A stretch of DNA of 64,000 nt from a virus. The notes under the pieces were generated by a model. That model saw nothing but the letters and a program-made list of their open reading frames with translations. It ran no database searches and was not told the origin of the DNA. The stretch covers positions 31,225 to 95,224 of the IMG/VR virus record IMGVR_UViG_3300035703_000041, one strand, 5' to 3'. Below are positions 7,801 through 63,860 of this stretch, in pieces (position 1 is the first letter of the stretch; each line of letters begins with the position of its first letter). The translations under genes and the position numbers were made by a program.

Positions 7801-10800
7801 GCAGAGGACTTTAAGGATAGTTTAGGTGTTAAGTTACCAAATCTAAAAGACATTACTGTAAGTGGCAGTAATGCTGCATTCACTTATACACCAAAAAGTG
7901 ATATTGATCTACACTTAGTTGTTGATTTACCTGAAGCAGATGGCGATGCTACTTATAGGGAATTGTTTGATGCTAAGAAGTTCCAATACAACGAGCAGCA
8001 TGACTACAAGATTAAAGAATACGATGTAGAACTTTATGTGCAAAATGCAAATGATGAACATGTAAGTCAAGGTATCTACAGTGTAATGAATGATGCTTGG
8101 ATTAAAGAACCACAACCAGTAAGTGGCGAGTACGATGAAGACAGCACACGCGCCAAATATGATCAAATAAAGTATCTCATACAAAAAGCATTAACTGTAA
8201 GAGATTATGCTTTAGCAGACAAGCTACGTCGAACTATTAAAAAGTATCGTCAAGTTGGGTTACATTCAACTGGTGAGTTTGGTCCTGAAAATCTTGCATT
8301 CAAAGCATTGCGTGCTAATGGCTACATTAAGAAACTGTATGAGTTATTAAATGATATTAAGGACAAAGAGTTTAGTTTAGAGAGTAACGATCAACGATTA
8401 CTTGAAATTGATATGAGTCCAGGAGCACTCAAAAAGTTCTCAACTACTGAGATTGCAAAGTCAACTAGTGTTGGTTTTGAGTTTGAAATGATCGTACCTA
8501 ACATGATAGATGACGGCAGTGAAAGTGAACCAGATTACGATTATGATGAATATGTAACAGATTCAACTGTTACTGCTATGCAAGATGATTTAATTAGATT
8601 CTTTAGAGATACTGAAACAAGTACAGCAATTAAACGAGCAGTTGAAGAAGTATCAGATGAAATAAATGATTTTATTTTAATGGAGTTTGATGGTGAATTA
8701 GATTCTGTAGATCAGCAGAGACGATTAAGAGAATTGTATAAAGCAGATACTTCACTCGAAGATGATGAAATAGAAAAGAGCATTGAAGATCAAGATAGCA
8801 CTTATGACGAAGTATTAAGTTCTTTGAGAGATGAGTATATGGAAGACTGGGACAATCTAAGTGGATTCTTAGAATATAACAGTCTTGAAATGATGTCTGA
8901 ATGGGCTAGTAGATTTAATTGGGAATGGCCACACTACACTGAAGCTGGCAGCGATGAAGTCGACGAACAAGCAATGCGTGAAGTAGCAGATGAAATCAAA
9001 AACGCTGTTAGTATGTCAGTTAGGTCTTCTCCTAATTATCATGCATTTAAGAAAAATAGAGAATCTGGTGTTTGGTATTTAGAAACTGATAGTTCAATTA
9101 ATGCTGATGAAAGTTCTGGTGAAGGTGGACTAGAATTAGTAAGTCCTCCATTGCCACTTGAGCAAGCATTAGAAAAGTTAGATGCAGTTCTAAATTGGAT
9201 GCAGAGATACGGCGCATATACTGATAGTTCAACTGGGTTCCATATGGGTGTAAGCATTCCGCAAATGGAAAATGTTGACTACATTAAGTTAATATTATTC
9301 CTAGGTGACAAATATGTATTAGATCAATTTGGTCGTTTAGGCAATTCATACACCCGCAGCGCACTAGATAAGATGGAAGTACAAAATGTTCCATATGTTA
9401 TGAAAAACATGCCAACTGTATTTGATGCTCTAAAAGGTGGATTAAACAAAGCAGCATTAAAAATGCTTGAATCAGCTCTTGTACCTCGAGGAGACAAATA
9501 TACTAGCGTAAACATTAAGGGCAGCACAACACCTAGTGGAGACATCAAGGATAATTACATTGAATTCCGTAGTGCTGGTGGAGATTACTTAGAAGCGATT
9601 GAAAAGATTAAAAATACACTATTGCGTTATGTTCGTGTAATGGCGCTTGCTGCTGATCCAAATGAAGCAAAGGAAGAGTATGCTAAGAAACTCTACAAGA
9701 TGCTATACAATGCTCAAAGCAATAAAAATGAAGATAATGTAGTTAGATTGTTTAGTATGTTTGCTAGCGGCAATATTTCAAAAGCAGAACTTGTAATGAA
9801 GCTTAAGGCAAAACAAGAATTAAGATTGGCAAAGAAAAGAGGCCCAATTGATTACGCAGTCTTAGATAGGAATAGCGATCCTATTACTATAGTTAAAGCA
9901 ATTAACAATAGCGAAGCTTTAACAAAAGGAATAGAATGGGAAAGAAGCAACCCAGTATCTGGCGGTGTGAGAGGTGTAAGATTAGCGACACTAGACGATA
10001 TAAAAGCTGTAGCTAATAGAAATACTGAAGGACAATGGCAACGTTGGAATGTTTATGGACACGAAGGACAAATCTTTACTAGTGTTTCAGCTCGCAATCG
10101 TCAAGAAGCAAGTCAACTTGCACTACGCTGGGGAAGAGAAAACGATAGTGTTATTTCTCATGTTACTCCTGAATCTGAGGATGAATTTGCAGCACTACAT
10201 AGAACAGAATCAAAAGAAGTTGTAACTGAACTTGCTAACAAGCCATACCCTTTTAAAACACAAGGCAATAAAAAGCATTTTCAAGCTCGTTTCGTAACAG
10301 ACAACAAACTAGTGTATAATGTTATGATTTTGGTCCCTCTTGAAGATTTTGAACCAAATAAAGCAGAAATAGAATTTTTCTCTGAAAATGAAGATGTTTT
10401 AAGAGGACATAAAATAACTGGAACTGGTGATTCTTTTAAAGTATTTGCGACTGTGTTAGAAATAATAAAAGCTTATCTAACAAAGCACAAAACAATCAAC
10501 GAATTTGAATTTGGTGCTAACAAAAGTGAACCGTCCCGTGTAAAGTTGTATGACACTATGGCAAAAATGTTACCAAAATATATTAATAATTTCAAATTTT
10601 TCAATAAGTATCCAAATAACTATAACGGATTCGCGTACCATTTTGTAAAAGTCAAAAAACCAACTACAGTAAAAGAAAATGAATTTGTAACTGAACTTGC
10701 TAATAAACCATATGAATATGATTTAGAAAGCGATAGCAGAGTTCTTCGTGCTACCTTTAAAACAGATGCTGGTCAACCTTATAGAATTTATATCGTAAAA

Positions 10801-31048: not shown

Positions 31049-32050
31049 ATGGGACTTCCTCTAAGTGAAATATTCAATCGTCTTATTAAAATAAGAAATT
31101 TGAATTTTGATGGCAATAAACAAGATATCTTAAACAAGATTGATAGTTTTAATAACTACCTTAAAAACGTTAAATTTATAGAATCCAATGAATTAAAAAG
31201 TATTGAAGAAAAGCTAGTTAAAGAATTAAACAATTATAGCGAGTTAATTAAAAAAATTGAACTTAAATTAGAAAAAGCAGTTTTAGATAATGAAGCATCT
31301 TACATTAAAGCAAGCAAAAAAATGTATGTTGAAAATTTAGAAAAAATGTTGTTTGAAGAACATTTAGAGTGGAGTCAACTATGGCCGCCAACTGATTTAG
31401 AATTTGATCATTTTTTAAATCAAATCAAACAATATATTAATTGGCAAGAACCATCTTTAATTTTTGGTGCTAATAATTCTAAAATATTAAAAGCAACGAT
31501 CGGTACTGAGCCAATTTATATTTTAGAACGCTATCCAGAATATTTTAACTTACAAAAAGAAAAATTTAATGTAAGCTTTTCAAGAAAATTACGTTTTTAT
31601 GATATTAACTCAATTAATTTATTACCTAAAAATAGTATTGGGTTATTGATATGCTTTAATGAACTTAACTTTCTGCCGTGGGATATTAGTTCTTATCTAT
31701 TAACTACGTTTTCTCAAATATTATCACCAGGCGGGAAACTTATTTTCAATTATAATAACTGTAAGACACTTAGAGGTTTTGTAGAATTTGAAAACCAAAG
31801 TATGGTATTTTCAACTCCTGAAATGTATATTAAACATTTAAAAAAATATAATTTAAATTGTATACACGAATATACATCAAACAGAGAAACATTTAGTTTT
31901 ATGATTTTTGAAAAAAGCGGAGTTAAAAACTTAGTTAAGAAAAGTCCTAGTGTTGGATATATTAAACAACAGCTAACATTATCAAAACCTGTTGAACACA
32001 AAGCTAGAATTGAACATATTGAAAAATTAATAAACAATAAATTGACCTAG
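31049..32050 (+). CDS. Coiled-coil protein with methyltransferase-like domain
   Basis: A 333-residue protein. Residues 1-110 are charged helices typical of a coiled coil. From about 135 there is a Rossmann-like pattern: LIFGANNSKILKATIG, IYILERYPEYF, LLICFNELNFLPW and LSPGGKLIFNYNNC, which resembles class I AdoMet methyltransferases, although the glycine motif is degenerate (FGANNSK). It lies between the polymerase and the clamp gene. Possibly an inactive methyltransferase fold. The substrate is unknown. Confidence 0.65.
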   Translation: MGLPLSEIFNRLIKIRNLNFDGNKQDILNKIDSFNNYLKNVKFIESNELKSIEEKLVKELNNYSELIKKIELKLEKAVLDNEASYIKASKKMYVENLEKMLFEEHLEWSQLWPPTDLEFDHFLNQIKQYINWQEPSLIFGANNSKILKATIGTEPIYILERYPEYFNLQKEKFNVSFSRKLRFYDINSINLLPKNSIGLLICFNELNFLPWDISSYLLTTFSQILSPGGKLIFNYNNCKTLRGFVEFENQSMVFSTPEMYIKHLKKYNLNCIHEYTSNRETFSFMIFEKSGVKNLVKKSPSVGYIKQQLTLSKPVEHKARIEHIEKLINNKLT

Positions 32051-37594: not shown

Positions 37595-37782
37595 AGGAAC
37601 AGCTAACTAAAATTTTCGACGACCTTGATAACTATCGCAAGTTTTGCGTAGAGTATGGGTATGTGTTTAATGAAGCACATCTATACAAGGGTGATACCCC
37701 TTGGGGCCAGTATTCACGCTGGCGTAGGGGAGACCGTGTAGTTGACAATTGGAAGAAGGATAGCCGCTATGTTATGGAATAA
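37591..37782 (+). CDS. Small hypothetical protein
   Basis: A 63-residue protein, start overlapping the previous stop in ATGA. Sequence is aromatic and charged (YGYVFNEAHLYKG, WGQYSRWRRGDRVVDNWKK). It overlaps the start of the L,D-transpeptidase gene by 14 bases. No family is recognised. Confidence 0.6.
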   Translation: MKEQLTKIFDDLDNYRKFCVEYGYVFNEAHLYKGDTPWGQYSRWRRGDRVVDNWKKDSRYVME

Positions 37783-38194
37783 GCTGCTAGCGGCTGCGCT
37801 GTTTACATTTGCGTTTATTGCTCCTGCCCAAGCAGGTTGGGTAGCCGTAACTGTAGACATTAGCGAACAAAAGATGATTGTACAAACAGAAGATGGAAGC
37901 AAAGAAGTCTATCCTGTTAGTACAGCAGCAGGTCGTAAGGTAACCCCAACTGGAGAGTTCCAACCATACCTTATGCGTAGGATGCATTATTCAAGTCGTT
38001 ACAATAATGCGCCAATGCCGTTTAGTATTTTCTACAGCGGCAACTATGCAATCCATGGAACTGAGCATATTAAAAAGCTTGGGCGACCAGCAAGTAAGGG
38101 CTGTGTGAGATTGCATCCAGAACATGCAGAACGATTGTTTAGCATGGTAAAAGCAGTAGGTATGGATAATACCTACATTAGGATCGTACCCTGA
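37769..38194 (+). CDS. L,D-transpeptidase (YkuD-like) with signal peptide
   Basis: A 141-residue protein. The start at ATG 37769 has GAAGGA 8 bases upstream and produces a clean signal peptide MLWNKLLAAALFTFAFIAP ending AQA, so export to the periplasm is predicted. The catalytic signature is IHGTEHIKKLGRPASKGCVR with His and Cys in the expected order. Family members cross-link peptidoglycan or attach proteins to it. In a phage it could alter the host wall during infection. It shares CTGA overlap with the next frame. Confidence 0.86.
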   Translation: MLWNKLLAAALFTFAFIAPAQAGWVAVTVDISEQKMIVQTEDGSKEVYPVSTAAGRKVTPTGEFQPYLMRRMHYSSRYNNAPMPFSIFYSGNYAIHGTEHIKKLGRPASKGCVRLHPEHAERLFSMVKAVGMDNTYIRIVP

Positions 38195-52219: not shown

Positions 52220-53341
52220 ATGGCTAAGACTGATAAGAACGCTAATGCTATTAGCGAAGTACGTACCGTTACGTCTGCAGAAGCGCGTAACCTTATTAAG
52301 ATTGCCGCAGTGCGGCGTAAGCGTCCCATTTTCCTTTGGGGACCTCCGGGTATTGGTAAGTCCGAACTTGTTGCCGATATCGGTACTGAGATTGATGCGC
52401 TTGTAATTGACTTGCGTATGGCACTACTTGATCCAACTGACCTGCGTGGTATTGGTTTCTATAACCCCAACACCAACACAATGGATTGGGCGCCGCCTGT
52501 TGACCTTCCTACTGCGGAAATGGCAGCTAGGCACAAGTATGTCATTTTGTTCCTTGACGAAATGAACTCTGCTCCGCCTGCTGTACAGGCTGCTGCATAC
52601 CAGCTTATTCTTAACCGGCGTATTGGTCAGTATCGTCTGCCCGACAACGTGGTAATTATTGCTGCTGGTAACCGCGAGACTGACAAGGGTGTTACTTACC
52701 GTATGCCTGCTCCGCTTGCTAACCGTTTCGTTCACTTCGAGATGCGCGTTGACTTTGAAGCTTGGCACACTTGGGCAGTTACGCATAACGTTCACTCGGA
52801 CGTAATTGGTTATCTGTCCCAGCACAAGGGCGACCTGTTCGACTTTACTCCAACTAGTTCTTCTCGTTCGTTTGCTACTCCGCGTAGCTGGACGTTCGTT
52901 AGCGACATCCTGCAGGAGCAGATGTCAGACAAGGAAGTGACCGACGTTATTGCTGGTACCGTAGGCGAGGGCATTGCCCACAAGTTTATTGGTCACCGCA
53001 AGTTCTCTGGTCAGCTTCCAAAGGCTGAGGACGTAGTTGAAGGTAAGGTTAAGGACCTTAAGGTGCAGGAAATTTCCGCACATTACACCCTTATGATCAA
53101 TCTCTGCTACGAGCTTAAGGAGCGTTTCGAGAACAACTCCAAGAAGGCTGACGACAAGTGGCACTCTAACGTAGACAACATGCTGCGTTACATTATGGAC
53201 AACCTCAGTGCTGAGCTGACCATTATGGGTATGCGTACTGCGGTAATGACCTACCGTCTGCCAATTGCTGCTCAGAAGCTTAAGAACTGGGATGAGTTCA
53301 ACAAGAAGTACGGCAAGTACATTCTCGCCGCTGCTGAGTAA
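52220..53341 (+). CDS. MoxR-type AAA+ ATPase
   Basis: A 373-residue single-AAA+ protein. Walker A GPPGIGKS (41-48), Walker B ILFLDEMNSAPP (about 110-120), sensor VIIAAGNRETD. The MoxR/CobS-type ATPases act with VWA-domain partners as chaperones; the VWA-like gene at 56908 is the likely partner. Cyanophages carry a similar gene annotated as cobS. Its codons are more GC-rich than those of the neighbours (frequent CGT, GAC, AAG), suggesting high expression or different ancestry. Early-type promoter upstream, strong hairpin after the stop. Confidence 0.88.
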   Translation: MAKTDKNANAISEVRTVTSAEARNLIKIAAVRRKRPIFLWGPPGIGKSELVADIGTEIDALVIDLRMALLDPTDLRGIGFYNPNTNTMDWAPPVDLPTAEMAARHKYVILFLDEMNSAPPAVQAAAYQLILNRRIGQYRLPDNVVIIAAGNRETDKGVTYRMPAPLANRFVHFEMRVDFEAWHTWAVTHNVHSDVIGYLSQHKGDLFDFTPTSSSRSFATPRSWTFVSDILQEQMSDKEVTDVIAGTVGEGIAHKFIGHRKFSGQLPKAEDVVEGKVKDLKVQEISAHYTLMINLCYELKERFENNSKKADDKWHSNVDNMLRYIMDNLSAELTIMGMRTAVMTYRLPIAAQKLKNWDEFNKKYGKYILAAAE

Positions 53342-53461: not shown

Positions 53462-53827
53462 ATGGCAAACAGGTATAAAAAAATTACTGATCCAGATGGG
53501 AATCACATAGATACCTTCTCTACTAGAGAACAAGCCTTTCTAGAAAAACTAGATGGTCGTAATCCACTTTACAAACATTATAAGTATCGTTTCACTGTTA
53601 GTGGCAAAGAGTTACCTTCTAAATTTTTAAATTGGATGGTAAACAACTTTGGTCCACCAACAAGTTATGGAATGGCTAAACATTATGTTAAATGTGGACA
53701 AGGTTTAGAAAATGTACCTTGGGTTCATTATAACGAAAGAAGTTATTGGAATCACCACCACATTTATTTCAATCAGGATTGCGAAGTATTAGTTCGTCTT
53801 AACTTCATGCAAGGCAGGACGTTTTGA
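53462..53827 (+). CDS. Small protein, first of the tiny-gene array
   Basis: A 121-residue protein from ATG 53462 with AAGG upstream. Sequence has FTVSGKELPSKFLNWMVNNF, a W/H/Y-rich centre, and ends DCEVLVRLNFMQGRTF, a variant of the array C-terminal pattern. Its TGA overlaps the next TTG start. Confidence 0.65.
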   Translation: MANRYKKITDPDGNHIDTFSTREQAFLEKLDGRNPLYKHYKYRFTVSGKELPSKFLNWMVNNFGPPTSYGMAKHYVKCGQGLENVPWVHYNERSYWNHHHIYFNQDCEVLVRLNFMQGRTF

Positions 53828-54051
53828 GACTTGTCCTCAATAGTGATCTTTGGAATAAAATTTACTACACTTTAGGACGCGATGCACTTAACAGTCGTAC
53901 CGGCAGGTATGAAATGGAAAAGTGGTTTAAAGAAAATCACAACATAACAATCAACACATTTCCAGATGGTCGTTGGAAAAGTGTTGATATTGATGACGAA
54001 GACCTTGTAATGATAATGCTTAAAATAGGAGCACCACATGACGTTATTTGA
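53824..54051 (+). CDS. Small array protein
   Basis: A 75-residue protein starting at TTG 53824 in TTGA overlap. It has an EMEKWFKENHNI helix and a DDEDLVMIMLKIG ending, matching D..D.VMFxLRW-like endings in the array. No family is recognised. Confidence 0.6.
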   Translation: MRLVLNSDLWNKIYYTLGRDALNSRTGRYEMEKWFKENHNITINTFPDGRWKSVDIDDEDLVMIMLKIGAPHDVI

Positions 54052-54274
54052 AGATTTTGATATTTGGTGGAAGATGCCTAAGTATAAGGACGTTGAAATT
54101 CCTGCAAAGGAGTTTAGTGATGTTGAGATTAAACAGCGCAATGGATCCAACAAAGGATGGCCTGGTCCCGAGGATAATGTTCACTATTGGGTTGAACTTG
54201 AAAATGGCATGGCTGTTGGTATTATTACTCCAAAGAAGAAACCAGCTACGTTTCCATTTTATAGAATGGTGTAA
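54038..54274 (+). CDS. Small array-adjacent protein
   Basis: A 78-residue protein, ATG 54038, with AGGAG near 54028-54032. Features FEDFDIWWKMPKYKDVEIPA, then an acidic centre and Pro-rich end. Does not carry the LRW ending. Overlaps both neighbours. Confidence 0.62.
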   Translation: MTLFEDFDIWWKMPKYKDVEIPAKEFSDVEIKQRNGSNKGWPGPEDNVHYWVELENGMAVGIITPKKKPATFPFYRMV

Positions 54275-54738
54275 TGACAAACAACCACAGAGATAATCGT
54301 GGGGCTGGCACAGGAGTTATCCTTGCTGGCTCCAAACCATTTGCACGTGGTATTTGGGACGTTTACGAAACAACCAATAATCATATTGGATTATTTGAAC
54401 GTAGCTTTTGGTTACAAGGGAATGATAAATGGCCTAGCAACGTTGGTACCCGCAATATTTTAAGTGAAGCACTGGATGACTTTGCTCGGTTTGTTGATGA
54501 AAATTTCCAAGACAATTTGATAATGCTAGAATGGACTAATATTCGTGTTATGGGCGGTATCGGATCTATTGATGGTAAACAAATTGCTGGCTCAGTATAT
54601 TTAGAAGAAAAAGCAAGAAAAGCTAAAGGCATTGTTGACGCTTATGAAGATACCCCAAGAATAATGGGCTATGAACTACGAGTTAGCGAACGCGATGCGT
54701 TTACTTTTCTAACTTTATGGAAGGGTTATGATGGATGA
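54274..54738 (+). CDS. Array-related larger protein
   Basis: A 154-residue protein with IWDVYETTNNHIGLFERSFW, a helical LSEALDDFARFVDENFQDN segment, and ends RDAFTFLTLWKGYDG, a longer version of the C-terminal array motif. No family is recognised. Overlaps the next gene by 11 bases. Confidence 0.65.
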   Translation: MTNNHRDNRGAGTGVILAGSKPFARGIWDVYETTNNHIGLFERSFWLQGNDKWPSNVGTRNILSEALDDFARFVDENFQDNLIMLEWTNIRVMGGIGSIDGKQIAGSVYLEEKARKAKGIVDAYEDTPRIMGYELRVSERDAFTFLTLWKGYDG

Positions 54739-54982
54739 GTATATATCAACGGAAGATGAATTAAATCGAGTTTGGCGTAGATATTACATGCAACGATTCT
54801 ACGAAGAACCTACTCTATGGAATCTTAATTATGCTCAAATTGATCGCAGAGGGTATAAGGCACGTTGTTTTGAAGATTGGTTATATGATCAAGGCATTAG
54901 TGTAATTCAACGAAACAGAAAACGTTATATGCGATTTTTTGATCGCAACGAAGCAACAATGTTTATATTGACATACCTATGA
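54728..54982 (+). CDS. Small array protein
   Basis: An 84-residue protein: EDELNRVWRRYYMQRFYEEP then ARCFEDWLYDQGISVIQ and an NEATMFILTYL ending. The W/Y/F and Arg-rich helix before the central DxLxxxG recurs in neighbours. The next gene's ATG overlaps its stop. Confidence 0.65.
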   Translation: MMDEYISTEDELNRVWRRYYMQRFYEEPTLWNLNYAQIDRRGYKARCFEDWLYDQGISVIQRNRKRYMRFFDRNEATMFILTYL

Positions 54983-55200
54983 CAGAAGACATGTCGTTAA
55001 ACGATTACCTTAAAGGTATTAAGCGTATGCATTGGCATATTGTTCGTGTACCATCTGGTAACAGTTATCATCTAATGGAAAGATGGCGAGAAGAAAATAA
55101 TTTTGGAGATTGTATATTCTTAGGAATGCATGGTGAGAACGTTACATACTTATTTGAAAGAGATCAGGACGCAGTTATGTTTGCGTTGAGGTGGGGATGA
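54979..55200 (+). CDS. Small array protein ending FALRWG
   Basis: A 73-residue protein: MHWHIVRVPSGNSYHLMERW, then a hydrophobic strand and DQDAVMFALRWG. Codons TTG AGG TGG (LRW) provide the GAGGTGG Shine-Dalgarno of the next ATG at 55197 while encoding this ending. No family is recognised. Confidence 0.68.
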   Translation: MTEDMSLNDYLKGIKRMHWHIVRVPSGNSYHLMERWREENNFGDCIFLGMHGENVTYLFERDQDAVMFALRWG

Positions 55201-55514
55201 TCTGGCCTTTCTCTCTGCCACCAAGAATAGATGCTACCAGGCAATTAAACATTCCAATTGATTGGGCGTATAGTGAGTACAAATATGTTTTTCGTATAAA
55301 CTGGAATTATCGTTTTTTATTTCGTGCTAACGATCTAAGACAAGAATTAGAGCAAGCATGTATGCAAAACTTTGCATATTATGTATTTGATCGTGTAATT
55401 TATGATTATTGGAGCAAGCGTTGGTTCTCTAATTCAATTGGTGGCGGAGACGAAATTTTTATCGTTACAAATTATGATGCTGGTGTTACATTATTACAGT
55501 TGAGGTGGTCATGA
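55197..55514 (+). CDS. Small array protein ending LQLRWS
   Basis: A 105-residue protein from ATG 55197 (a GTG at 55191 in frame is less likely). YKYVFRINWNYRFLFRANDL and a central AYYVFDRVIYDYWSKRWF segment precede DAGVTLLQLRWS. Same dual use of LRW codons as the next ribosome binding site. Confidence 0.66.
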   Translation: MIWPFSLPPRIDATRQLNIPIDWAYSEYKYVFRINWNYRFLFRANDLRQELEQACMQNFAYYVFDRVIYDYWSKRWFSNSIGGGDEIFIVTNYDAGVTLLQLRWS

Positions 55515-55708
55515 AAGAATTGCCATTAGGATTGTACGGAAAAAACGATGCTGTTGCTACAAAAGCAAATAGGGATGAAGTCGTTGCATGGTGTGTAGAA
55601 AATAAAATTGGTGCTTTTTTCTATGGCAAGTATTTGGTCAACGGGAATGATTATTGGATTGTATCCGATGATGAACACCGTGTAATGTTTATGTTGAGGT
55701 GGTCATGA
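55511..55708 (+). CDS. Small array protein ending FMLRWS
   Basis: A 65-residue protein from ATG 55511: EVVAWCVENKIGAFFYGKY, YWIVSDDEHRVMFMLRWS. The smallest clean copy of the array fold, helix-strand-strand with a DDxHRVMFxLRW ending. Confidence 0.66.
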   Translation: MKELPLGLYGKNDAVATKANRDEVVAWCVENKIGAFFYGKYLVNGNDYWIVSDDEHRVMFMLRWS

Positions 55709-55959
55709 TACATCACTGGCGTCGAGACGAAGGCGGCGGTTATTTTGAGCCAAACGTAAAAACTGCTTGGCGTTGCATCATCTATGCTAGAGATTTCAAT
55801 TTGGATTTAGAGCGATGGTTCTTGGATCAAGGAGCCGTAGATGAGGTTGACTACGATTTCAATAAACGCTATAATTCAGGAGACCCAGCATATTTTATTT
55901 CAATTTATCGAGAAGATTTAGCAACTGCATTTTTGTTGAGATGGAATAATGAAAATTGA
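55705..55959 (+). CDS. Small array protein ending FLLRWNNEN
   Basis: An 84-residue protein from ATG 55705: AWRCIIYARDFNLDLERWFL, an acidic turn, AYFISIYREDLATAFLLRW. The RWxxxNxN ending contains the next ATG (55949) ten bases before its stop. Same family pattern as neighbours. Confidence 0.66.
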   Translation: MIHHWRRDEGGGYFEPNVKTAWRCIIYARDFNLDLERWFLDQGAVDEVDYDFNKRYNSGDPAYFISIYREDLATAFLLRWNNEN

Positions 55960-56293
55960 AGTTAAAGAATTTGAATTTAATGGTCTACGATTTTTTATAT
56001 CTAAGCATCCTATCAACACGAATCACCGTAAAATTTGGTCCGAAAGTAATGTTAGTCCAACTGAAATGAAAATAGTATGTAAAGATTTAGGCGACAAACG
56101 TTGGATGTGTAGAGCAGAAGTGCCGGCAGAGCAAGCTCGAGAGTTTGAGTCTTGGGTAGAGGAAACTATGAGTGAACGTTGCCTAATCAGCAAAGAATTT
56201 GAACATGATCCAGATGGCACACTAAGACGTATCTACGAAGTTCGTGGCGGAGATGTTAGTGACAGAACAATGTTAATGTTGAGGTGGAAATGA
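55949..56293 (+). CDS. Larger array protein ending LMLRWK
   Basis: A 114-residue protein: VKEFEFNGLRFFISKHPIN, a central RWMCRAEVPAEQAREFESWV segment, and DRTMLMLRWK at the end. Its ending codons form GAGGTGG ahead of ATG 56290. Confidence 0.66.
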   Translation: MKIEVKEFEFNGLRFFISKHPINTNHRKIWSESNVSPTEMKIVCKDLGDKRWMCRAEVPAEQAREFESWVEETMSERCLISKEFEHDPDGTLRRIYEVRGGDVSDRTMLMLRWK

Positions 56294-56610
56294 AATTAGA
56301 TAAAGTAAAAGTTGAAGCAAAGACGAGAACGTTATCAGCCAATTACACTGTTGAACAGTCTGAAGAGATTGAACACATTCTTGGTGACGAATTACAAAAA
56401 GAGATTGATAATGAAGTAATGAATTCAATTCTTGGACCTACACTAAGAGAAAGAGGTTGGTATCCTATTGTATTAAAAGATACATATTGGGCGGATATTC
56501 CAAAAGAATGGATTGCAGGAAATATTCAATACGAATATAGTTGCTTTGGTAGTTATTGGTATTTTGCAAATCAAGCAGACGCTACTGCATTTGCATTAAA
56601 ATGGACATAA
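56290..56610 (+). CDS. Array protein ending FALKWT
   Basis: A 106-residue protein from ATG 56290: VEQSEEIEHILGDELQKEID helix, then YWADIPKEWIAGNIQYEYSC, and ADATAFALKWT. The next ATG follows the stop by one base, so no overlap here. Confidence 0.65.
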   Translation: MKLDKVKVEAKTRTLSANYTVEQSEEIEHILGDELQKEIDNEVMNSILGPTLRERGWYPIVLKDTYWADIPKEWIAGNIQYEYSCFGSYWYFANQADATAFALKWT

Positions 56611-56611
56611 C

Positions 56612-56815
56612 ATGGCACTTTGGACTTTCTGTGATGATTTGGACACACCAGAACTTGGCATTTGTTTAAGCATGGATTGGTGGGACAAAAATGGCAACAC
56701 TGTAAAAGAGTGGTTCCAAAATGAAGGAGAAGGTGTTGGTTCCGTTGTAAGCGATCACATGATTTTTGTTTACCCAAATAAAAGAACGCTTTTTTTGCTA
56801 AGATTTGGACCTTAA
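56612..56815 (+). CDS. Last array protein, ends FLLRFGP
   Basis: A 67-residue protein: ALWTFCDDLDTPELGICLSM, VVSDHMIFVYPNKRTLFLLRF. The same helix-strand-strand order in the shortest form, with R-F in place of R-W. Last of the array before the sigma-70 promoter at 56855. Confidence 0.65.
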   Translation: MALWTFCDDLDTPELGICLSMDWWDKNGNTVKEWFQNEGEGVGSVVSDHMIFVYPNKRTLFLLRFGP

Positions 56816-56854: not shown

Positions 56855-56882
56855 TTGACATTTTAACAGTTGATGCTATAAT
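56855..56882 (+). promoter_or_regulatory. Consensus sigma-70 promoter for the VWA gene
   Basis: TTGACA (56855-56860) and TATAAT (56877-56882), 16 bases apart, the best sigma-70 match in the window. TAGGAG at 56895-56900 precedes ATG 56908. Confidence 0.75.
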
Positions 56883-56907: not shown

Positions 56908-58176
56908 ATGCACGTTTATATGGCTAAGAAGAAGAAAGATATTGCAAAGTGCCTGCCTTATGACGCGAAGCGTGACGCACAGGCACGTGACCGTCTTATC
57001 CAGGCGCGCGTTAAGATGCTTATGACCCAAGACTTTTGGGGTAAGATTGCTACACGTATGAAGCTTATCAATGCTGACGAATGGTGTGCTACACTAGCCA
57101 CTGATGGTCGTAATTTTTATTACAACTCCGCATTTGTTCTATCGCTTAAGCACATTGACAAAGTAATCTTTGGTTTTGCTCACGAAGTGCTGCATTGCGT
57201 ATATGATCACATTGCGCGTACTGGCAGCCGTGATCGCCAGCTTTCCAACATTGCACAAGACTATGTAATTAACGCTGATCTTGTTCGTCACCGTATTGGT
57301 CAGAAGATTGATGAAATTGACATCATCTATGACGACAAGTATTATGGGTGGGCATGGGAAGCGGTCTATGATGAACTAATGAAGAATGTTAAGTTCATCA
57401 ACGTTGAAGACCTTGCTGACATGCTACTTGACGATCACCTTGAGGAAGGTGAAGATGATGGTGATGGCAAAGAAGGTGACAAGGATAGCGTAAGCCGCAA
57501 GCGTCCTGTTATCAGCCGTGAGGAGCGTGAGAAGCTTAGGGACGAGTTCCGTGAAGCTATCCTGCAAGCTGCACAGGGCGCAAAGCCTGGTTCGCTGCCG
57601 TCAGGTGTTGAACGCATGGTAAAGAGCATGACTGATCCCAAGCTGGATTGGCGTTCGCTTATTACTATGAAGATCCCTTCGCTTGCTAAGAACGACTATA
57701 GCTACCAGCGCCCCAACAAGAAGTATCAGTACTCCGGTATTGTTATGCCTGGTCTACAGCGTGAAGAAGCAATTGACGTTTGTATTGCTATTGACACATC
57801 CGGTTCTATCAGCCAGCAGCAGCTCGAAGAAGTGTTGAGCGAGATTGTTGGTCTTATGGACATGTATGCGGAGTTTACGCTACGCATTTGGCAGTTTGAT
57901 ACTGGCATTTACGGTTACGAAACTTTCACTAAGGACACTGCTGGTGACCTTATGCGTTATGAAATTAAGGGTGGCGGTGGTACTAGCTTTGCTGCTAACT
58001 GGGACTTCATGAAGAATGAAGGTATCGAACCCAAGCTGTTCATTATGTTTACGGACGGTGAAAGCTTTGATGGTTGGGGTGATCCAGACTATCAGGACGA
58101 TATGCTTTGGATTATCAACAATCCGTATAACAAGAGCATTGAACCTCCCTACGGTGCGTGGGCATACTACGAGTAA
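56908..58176 (+). CDS. Metallopeptidase-like plus VWA-domain protein (DUF2201 type)
   Basis: A 422-residue protein. N-terminal part has HEVLHCVYDH (HExxH at 92-96) in the arrangement of zinc metallopeptidase-like domains, followed by an acidic linker, then a von Willebrand A domain with the MIDAS motif DTSGS (about 296-300) and FTDGESF. Such proteins pair with MoxR-type ATPases, and the ATPase gene lies 3.6 kb upstream. The two share a GC-rich, high-expression codon style that differs from the small genes between them. Cyanophages have similar cobT-like genes. Whether the peptidase cuts a substrate is unknown. Confidence 0.87.
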   Translation: MHVYMAKKKKDIAKCLPYDAKRDAQARDRLIQARVKMLMTQDFWGKIATRMKLINADEWCATLATDGRNFYYNSAFVLSLKHIDKVIFGFAHEVLHCVYDHIARTGSRDRQLSNIAQDYVINADLVRHRIGQKIDEIDIIYDDKYYGWAWEAVYDELMKNVKFINVEDLADMLLDDHLEEGEDDGDGKEGDKDSVSRKRPVISREEREKLRDEFREAILQAAQGAKPGSLPSGVERMVKSMTDPKLDWRSLITMKIPSLAKNDYSYQRPNKKYQYSGIVMPGLQREEAIDVCIAIDTSGSISQQQLEEVLSEIVGLMDMYAEFTLRIWQFDTGIYGYETFTKDTAGDLMRYEIKGGGGTSFAANWDFMKNEGIEPKLFIMFTDGESFDGWGDPDYQDDMLWIINNPYNKSIEPPYGAWAYYE

Positions 58177-62980: not shown

Positions 62981-63573
62981 TGCCAAACTTAGTTCCAATT
63001 GTACTAGAGAAAACTGCTAACGGAGAACGTAGCTATGACATTTATAGCCGACTGCTTAAGGATCGTATTGTCATTATGGATACGGATGTTAACGAGCACA
63101 GCGCCAGTCTCATTGTGGCACAAATGCTTTTCCTTGAAAGTGAAGGCCCTGGTGATCCAATTAACTTTTACATTAACAGCCCAGGTGGTAGCGTAACAGC
63201 AGGCATGGGTATCTATGATACCATGCAGTTTATTAAGAGCCCAGTACACACATATGTCTTTGGACAAGCTGCAAGCATGGGATCGCTACTTGCACAAGCA
63301 GGTGAACCTGGACACCGTTATATGATGCCACATGCGCGACACATGATCCATCAGCCAAGTGGCGGTGCTCGTGGTATGGTAAGTGACATTGAGATTACTT
63401 ACAAGGAAATCCAACGTCTTAAGGAAGAGCTTACACGTATCTATGTAACACATAATAGTGCAGGTAAAACTTTTGAGCAGCTTACAAAAGATATGGATCG
63501 CGATACTTGGATGACTGCTGAACAAGCAGTTGAGTATGGATTAGTAGATCAAATTGTAAAGAAAAGAGTATGA
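62980..63573 (+). CDS. clpP: ClpP protease subunit
   Basis: A 197-residue ClpP with the complete catalytic triad: Ser99 in QAASMGSLLAQAG, His124 in HMIHQPSGG, and Asp175 in the DMDRD segment. Also SPGGSVTAGMGIYDTMQFI and the EYGLVDQI end of bacterial ClpP. No propeptide is seen. It is a normal cytoplasmic type rather than the prohead-protease type. The ClpA-like gene in the same window has an intact ClpP-docking IGF loop. Start overlaps the small gene before it. Confidence 0.96.
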   Translation: MPNLVPIVLEKTANGERSYDIYSRLLKDRIVIMDTDVNEHSASLIVAQMLFLESEGPGDPINFYINSPGGSVTAGMGIYDTMQFIKSPVHTYVFGQAASMGSLLAQAGEPGHRYMMPHARHMIHQPSGGARGMVSDIEITYKEIQRLKEELTRIYVTHNSAGKTFEQLTKDMDRDTWMTAEQAVEYGLVDQIVKKRV

Positions 63574-63860
63574 GCTTATACTTAGATAACAAAGTTGATC
63601 CAATCGCAGCAGCAGGTGGAAGAGAGTTGGACTTCATTCCAAAACACTTCCATTGTGTGTCCCTATCTAATGGCTATTATGATCAAAGATCTATACGAAA
63701 TTGGATTTGGAAAAATCAAAGTGGTAGATTTGCTATTGCTACTAAAGTATCAGAGGACATGCGTAACGAGCTATTTGCTGCTTTTGAAGATTCAGGCGAA
63801 GCAATTATGTTTACACTTATTTTACCTACACTAAAGTCAGACTTTTTTGATGACTTTTAA
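63570..63860 (+). CDS. Small hypothetical protein
   Basis: A 96-residue protein, start overlapping clpP in ATGA. Middle has FHCVSLSNGYYDQRSIRNWI and a C-terminal EDSGEAIMFTLILPTLKSDF that recalls the array endings. No family is recognised. Confidence 0.65.
   Translation: MSLYLDNKVDPIAAAGGRELDFIPKHFHCVSLSNGYYDQRSIRNWIWKNQSGRFAIATKVSEDMRNELFAAFEDSGEAIMFTLILPTLKSDFFDDF

Follow-up and report, generated by a model that had tools for sequence, protein, structure and literature searches.

Translational coupling between overlapping genes offers the closest described precedent for the gene array reported here. Experiments in E. coli and Haloferax have established termination-reinitiation at ATGA or TGATG overlaps with an intragenic Shine-Dalgarno sequence (PMC6728339, PMC10666635); how much that sequence contributes differs from one gene pair to another, some depending on it entirely and others not at all (PMC6728339). 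The published systems (Huber et al. 2019, PMC6728339; 2023, PMC10666635; review, PMC12548453) share with our genes a 4-nt overlap and a Shine-Dalgarno sequence inside the 3' end of the upstream gene; they follow the same spacing logic and also include -1 overlaps. In the viral genes described below, stop and start codons overlap or lie a few nucleotides apart, and a predicted Shine-Dalgarno sequence at the proper spacing lies inside the upstream gene.

The window is a 64,000-nucleotide stretch of viral DNA (positions 31,225 to 95,224 of IMG/VR record IMGVR_UViG_3300035703_000041), and it carries eight small, closely packed genes in a row on the plus strand (54728-56815). Five of the encoded proteins end in or near L-R-W, and the other three end in LKWT, LRFGP and LTYL. 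Four junctions in the array have the form TTGAGGTGG-NN-ATGA, that is, TTG AGG TGG NNA TGA, in which the next ATG overlaps the stop codon by 4 nt. The first, TTGAGGTGGGGATGA (55186-55200), holds the codons for L-R-W-G-stop together with a predicted GAGGTG Shine-Dalgarno sequence and the ATG of the gene at 55197. The others, each likewise comprising a predicted Shine-Dalgarno sequence within GAGGTGG and an overlapping ATG, are TTGAGGTGGTCATGA, which occurs twice (55500-55514 and 55694-55708, with the starts at 55511 and 55705), and TTGAGGTGGAAATGA (56279-56293, with the start at 56290). Across the whole 95,224-base record TTGAGGTGGNNATGA is found at these four array junctions only, with no site on the other strand and none for the reversed control pattern.

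The genes of the array differ in how readily they are recognized as members of the protein family described below. The first (54728-54982) ends FILTYL, overlaps the next gene by ATGA, has a homologue at 7809 in the related locus L002, and matches the family profile weakly (E 0.016). Three genes are joined to the family by the profile itself: 54979-55200, which ends FALRWG (E 3e-14); 55511-55708, which ends FMLRWS (E 6e-7); and 56290-56610, which ends FALKWT (E 8e-13) and carries an additional N-terminal piece considered later. Two more are joined by profile-profile comparison, namely 55197-55514 (ending LQLRWS; probability 94%; homologues at 8493 in the related locus L001 and 8322 in L002) and 55949-56293 (ending LMLRWK; probability 89%; homologues at 9043 in L001, with 72% identity, and 9481 in L002). 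The C-terminal ends listed in the original prediction are thus correct, except that the FLLRW protein (55705-55959) continues to FLLRWNNEN. This gene, with weak profile support (E 0.012; profile-profile 55%), is also the one of the five LRW genes in which the motif codons do not supply GAGGTGG to the follower, as had been proposed for all of them: it reads TTG AGA TGG before the NNEN tail, and the next ATG, at 55949, lies within an 11-nt overlap. In the gene at 56290, LKW is spelled TTA AAA TGG and the next ATG stands 1 nt past the stop. The last gene (56612-56815) ends FLLRFGP and is the best conserved between relatives (75%).

Five further open reading frames had been suggested as possible relatives. 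The one at 63570-63860, also on the plus strand, is a separate family member with a derived end (AIMFTLILPTLK...; E 7e-6), and 53824-54051 (plus strand; MIMLKIGAPHDVI) is marginal (E 0.022). The profile alone gives no support for 38191 (E 1.3), for 56612, the last gene of the array, whose family match is weak (E 4.6), or for 54274-54738 (E 16), a possible distant member on the plus strand that ends DAFTFLTLWKGYDG and overlaps the gene at 54728 by 11 nt. The LKW-ending frame at 38191 lies directly downstream of an L,D-transpeptidase gene (37742-38194; YkuD, Pfam E 8e-18) with an N-terminal hydrophobic stretch. Outside the window, the same record holds further true family members at 11.3-12.7 kb and near 21 kb. 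The array itself is flanked by genes for a MoxR-type AAA ATPase (52220-53341) and a DUF2201 VWA-like metallopeptidase (56908-58176). A sigma-70-type promoter with a perfect consensus (12/12, TTGACA-16-TATAAT; 56855-56882, plus strand) lies just past the array and before the VWA-like gene; promoter-like sites across the array region are at chance level overall, and an Rfam search of the array returned no match.

The array genes belong to a large, virus-restricted family of small proteins that lacks a prior description and is expanded in jumbo phages. The initial observation holds, and the window contains only a small part of the family. When DAxMFx[L/F][R/S]W was searched as a codon-neutral DNA pattern, with the Leu codon, the Arg codon and the stop left free, it matched at least 120 viral stretches; among the matches listed nearly all lie at gene 3' ends, most with the stop one residue further on. 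The same pattern gave chance matches only in 257 Gb of prokaryotic genomes (GTDB). Profile searches recovered several hundred members spread over 123 loci, with up to 12 in a row, and nine records of 192-608 kb hold 10-63 members each, with 3 in a tenth, a 15-kb fragment. Single members are so diverged that a one-protein search for relatives in IMG/VR was unproductive, and the relatives with matching arrays, L001 and L002, were reached there through the neighbouring VWA-like gene.

The shared part of these proteins is a domain of about 60 residues with a beta-alpha-beta-beta-alpha order, and F-x-L-[R/K]-W closes its final helix, at or beside the C terminus. AlphaFold models of a window member (54979-55200; pLDDT 85) and of a relative (pLDDT 94) both have this order, with L-R-W terminating the last helix, which bears out the helix-strand-strand core originally proposed for the proteins. 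Pfam and PHROG matched none of 120 members at E 0.001, and the PDB yielded no significant sequence or fold match for the LRW domain, with no fold hit below E 0.1; the best fold alignments covered unspecific alpha-beta pieces, polymerase fragments among them, and were left out of consideration. In BFVD, uncharacterized proteins of uncultured Caudovirales phages have the same predicted fold (the two best, A0A6J5NXQ2 and A0A6J5TB89, with TM-scores of 0.85 and 0.77 over the query, and others), with no name, function or family description attached. Among isolate phages, a nucleotide search with 24 kb of the window found no match, and tblastn with two family members found none, a third member matching only the cultured Sinorhizobium phage Phosso (PV764938.1). 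The family is absent at E 0.001 from Salicola phage SCTP-2, Cronobacter phage GAP32, Xanthomonas phage XbC2 and cyanophage P-HM1, and we found no description of it in the open-access literature.

What is the relation between the conserved ending and the gene that follows? In members of the aquatic group, found with a profile blind to LRW and with GTG and TTG starts allowed, 292 of 441 have a predicted start 3-9 nt after the codon at the Arg position. When such a start is present, AGG is the Arg codon in 179 of 229 members (78%); when the next start is absent or at least 15 nt away, it is used in 8 of 38 (21%; odds ratio 13, P 2e-11), counts that are not independent, since family members are related. 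Averaged by sequence cluster, the AGG fraction is 0.78 in coupled members (102 clusters) and 0.24 in uncoupled ones (26 clusters; P 5e-7), and in 8 of 10 clusters holding both kinds it is higher in the coupled members. A first count had given AGG as 91% of the Arg codons when an ATG follows at 4-9 nt. The Leu codon behaves similarly, ending in G in 207 of 276 coupled members (75%) versus 21 of 62 (34%) without a nearby start. GAGGTG is present in 45% of the family's ATGA overlaps versus 4% of other ATGA overlaps, a set that still includes undetected family members. Shine-Dalgarno-like 4-mers in the family overlaps fall at -9 from the ATG in 122 cases and elsewhere in 18, with GAGG almost always at -9. 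Base conservation halts at the ATGA. The dependence of codon on distance and the limit of conservation fit selection for a ribosome-binding site, and the reading that synonymous selection favours LRW codons suited to a predicted ribosome signal for the next gene is supported. The residue itself is also commoner in coupled members (R at the middle position in 229 of 292 coupled versus 38 of 67 uncoupled; P 5e-4), a hint that the nucleotide signal may help to hold it in place; since R is common even without a nearby start, it is not explained by the signal alone.

An alternative possibility is that these are ordinary overlapping genes in which LRW is conserved as protein only and the use of AGG stems from codon bias or common descent. 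The relatedness of the members, and hence the non-independence of the counts, would favour this account, as would the survival of LRW in members with a 9-residue tail, in which it is encoded mostly by CGN. AGG is, however, rare elsewhere in the same proteins, with a share of 8% among the 1,605 Arg codons of their bodies, and in the same genomes, where it ranges genome-wide from 1.5 to 5.7% in four records that use it at the motif in 9/16, 10/12, 11/14 and 5/8 cases. Such per-genome comparisons, together with the survival of the contrast after clustering and within 8 of the 10 mixed clusters, contradict an account that we regard as extremely improbable. The junction might instead be kept as a short block of DNA homology for in-frame cassette recombination, its likeness to a Shine-Dalgarno sequence being secondary. 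Array genes have indeed been gained, lost and reordered among three relatives with flanks that stay 83-94% identical. Nothing about a homology block, however, would call for AGG to track how far away the next start lies, and conservation beyond the coding need touches only the A of ATGA and the bases that make up GAGG. Adjacent wobble positions are variable, as are the two bases preceding the ATG, and conservation ends with ATGA. We therefore judge recombination very unlikely to be what maintains the junction.

It could also be that the motif supplies start codons rather than a ribosome-binding site, the downstream start usually being an ATG inside [A/C]GATGG or AAATGG. AGA, CGA or AAA before TGG creates an ATG in many members, and this ATG lies in an open downstream frame in 53 members with R and 24 with K; in TTGAGATGGTCATGA it is in frame with the ATGA start. 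About one-fifth of coupled members lack AGG, mostly having TTGAGATGG, and translation of the next gene may start inside AGATGG there. The commoner AGG form, however, destroys the inner ATG, and AGG accounts for the majority of members with a start at 3-9 nt. As a general explanation the inner ATG thus seems unlikely, and we consider it a possible second route to the same end, alongside selection for a ribosome-binding site.

Relatives in which the signal is mostly missing bear on which of the two features came first. Phosso, with 43 profile matches (those near 95-100 kb bear the annotation "hypothetical protein"), and the record G003 have F-K-L-x-W/F endings in which the middle residue is T, A, V, S or R, mostly without AGG. 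Some of their genes still overlap by ATGA, mostly without GAGGTG, indicating that the signal is not needed for the overlap. The subfamily with the 9-residue tail retains LRW with its mostly CGN codons. Pseudomonas phage PA5oct and Agrobacterium phage Atu_ph07 have 3 and 4 profile matches, respectively, and the members examined have further derived ends. The endings in Phosso and G003, together with the tail subfamily, indicate that F-x-L-x-W stands by itself as a protein motif, onto which the predicted ribosome signal is superimposed in the aquatic lineages. The original proposal that motif and signal are co-selected accordingly needs dividing: AGG and the G-ending Leu codon track whether, and how far off, the next gene starts and not codon bias, but the motif persists where the signal does not. 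Relatives with other codons for LRW and no overlap, originally named as evidence against the proposal, do occur to this extent, and they favour the selection reading.

The arrays have turned over faster than their surroundings. The genes on either side, for the MoxR-type ATPase and the VWA-like protein, share 83-94% identity among the window, L001 and L002, versus about 36-75% for the array genes, some of which are missing, and the homologues of 55197 and 55511 are swapped in order. Tandem duplication, which had been suggested as the source of coupled genes, cannot be traced because the paralogues are too diverged; what distinguishes the arrays is genes gained, lost or moved. About two-thirds of coupled next genes are family members, and about one-third were not detected as such.

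Some members carry N-terminal pieces of other proteins. The gene at 56290-56610 matches Pfam Gp23 (PF07068; PHROG 138) at E 1e-6 over residues 1-48, covering profile positions 136-195 of 376. It was rejected as a Gp23 major capsid protein, since it does not have the full-length capsid fold; full-length Gp23 genes stand separately in Phosso and in five other genomes (G002, G003, G004, G005 and G007). Unlike Gp23 itself, the members concerned carry only about 30-60 residues, from at least three places in the protein (profile regions of approximately 7-51, 133-194 and 305-354), joined to the LRW-type domain. Such pieces occur in several unrelated phages (L001 9384-9704; L017 11601-11970; L115 6412-6832; Phosso near 114.0-114.3 kb; and, numbered on the reversed locus, L063 4368-4746 and L020 5955-6372), amounting to about 15 of 787 candidate members, several of them weak. 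They could point to capsid-related roles or to roles in virus-virus conflict, but with so few members showing them we take this as a lead and not as an explanation. A small open reading frame in L002 (2761-2958), ending ISEDLVNDLKIMYGIDAIVEITKILEEEIEKEKENGLD, resembles by eye a stand-alone fragment of the Gp23 spine helix. A second recurrent N-terminal piece, PWQ...GRNxGKS (L016 6114-6531; L040 5078-5537; L077 7536-7935; and, on the reversed locus, L083 4889-5288 and L082 5132-5564), resembles the P-loop start of the large terminase and matches no library profile; profile searches gave no support for a terminase origin, which was set aside. Our best guess, offered tentatively, is that the LRW proteins act as small, non-structural binders in taking over the host or in inter-virus conflict.

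How might such an ending work? GAGGTG is exactly complementary to CACCUC, the core of the 16S anti-Shine-Dalgarno sequence. With L-R-W encoded preferentially, in this phage and its aquatic relatives, as TTG AGG TGG and followed by NNA TGA, the 3' end of the gene would double as an initiation region in which GAGGTG pairs with CACCUC and the ATG overlaps the stop, and a ribosome finishing one protein would be well placed to start the next by termination-reinitiation. Any cassette with this ending could then precede any other. Since each gene carries the predicted signal for its follower, any order of cassettes would be workable, in keeping with arrays that have gained, lost and reordered genes, and shuffling would be expected to preserve expression. 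The family, its modelled fold, the tandem runs and the link between codon and distance come directly from the analysis; ribosome pairing, coupled translation and cassette-like spread are steps that we infer from the sequences. Taken as a whole, a virus-restricted family whose C-terminal codons serve as the initiation signal of the next gene is, in our judgement, a highly probable explanation. A more speculative extension, which we hold to be rather doubtful, is a self-coupling cassette system in which a portable 3' adaptor (helix end, Shine-Dalgarno sequence and ATGA) joins diversified proteins, some of them carrying pieces of the major capsid protein, that serve as weapons or as shields against other viruses or the host. 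If that is the case, the adaptor would let a phage acquire, drop and rearrange small effector genes with no need for new promoters or leaders.

The family would provide a clean natural case in which one stretch of DNA is both a conserved protein end and the initiation signal of the next gene, repeated over hundreds of diverged paralogues, so that selection acting on synonymous codons shows up directly in relation to whether, and how far downstream, another gene starts. The analysis also brings to light a gene family present at tens of copies per jumbo-phage genome and unnamed in the annotation libraries searched, and suggests how phages may keep long runs of tiny genes expressible during shuffling. 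In the published systems coupling has been measured, whereas for the LRW family we infer it from sequence. Published surveys of coupling find the signal in unrelated protein ends; here the predicted signal lies in the conserved C-terminal motif of one family and so moves along with every copy of the gene. Termination-reinitiation is already known, and what is new is that its predicted signal has become fixed in the conserved C terminus of a multigene family whose members are shuffled.
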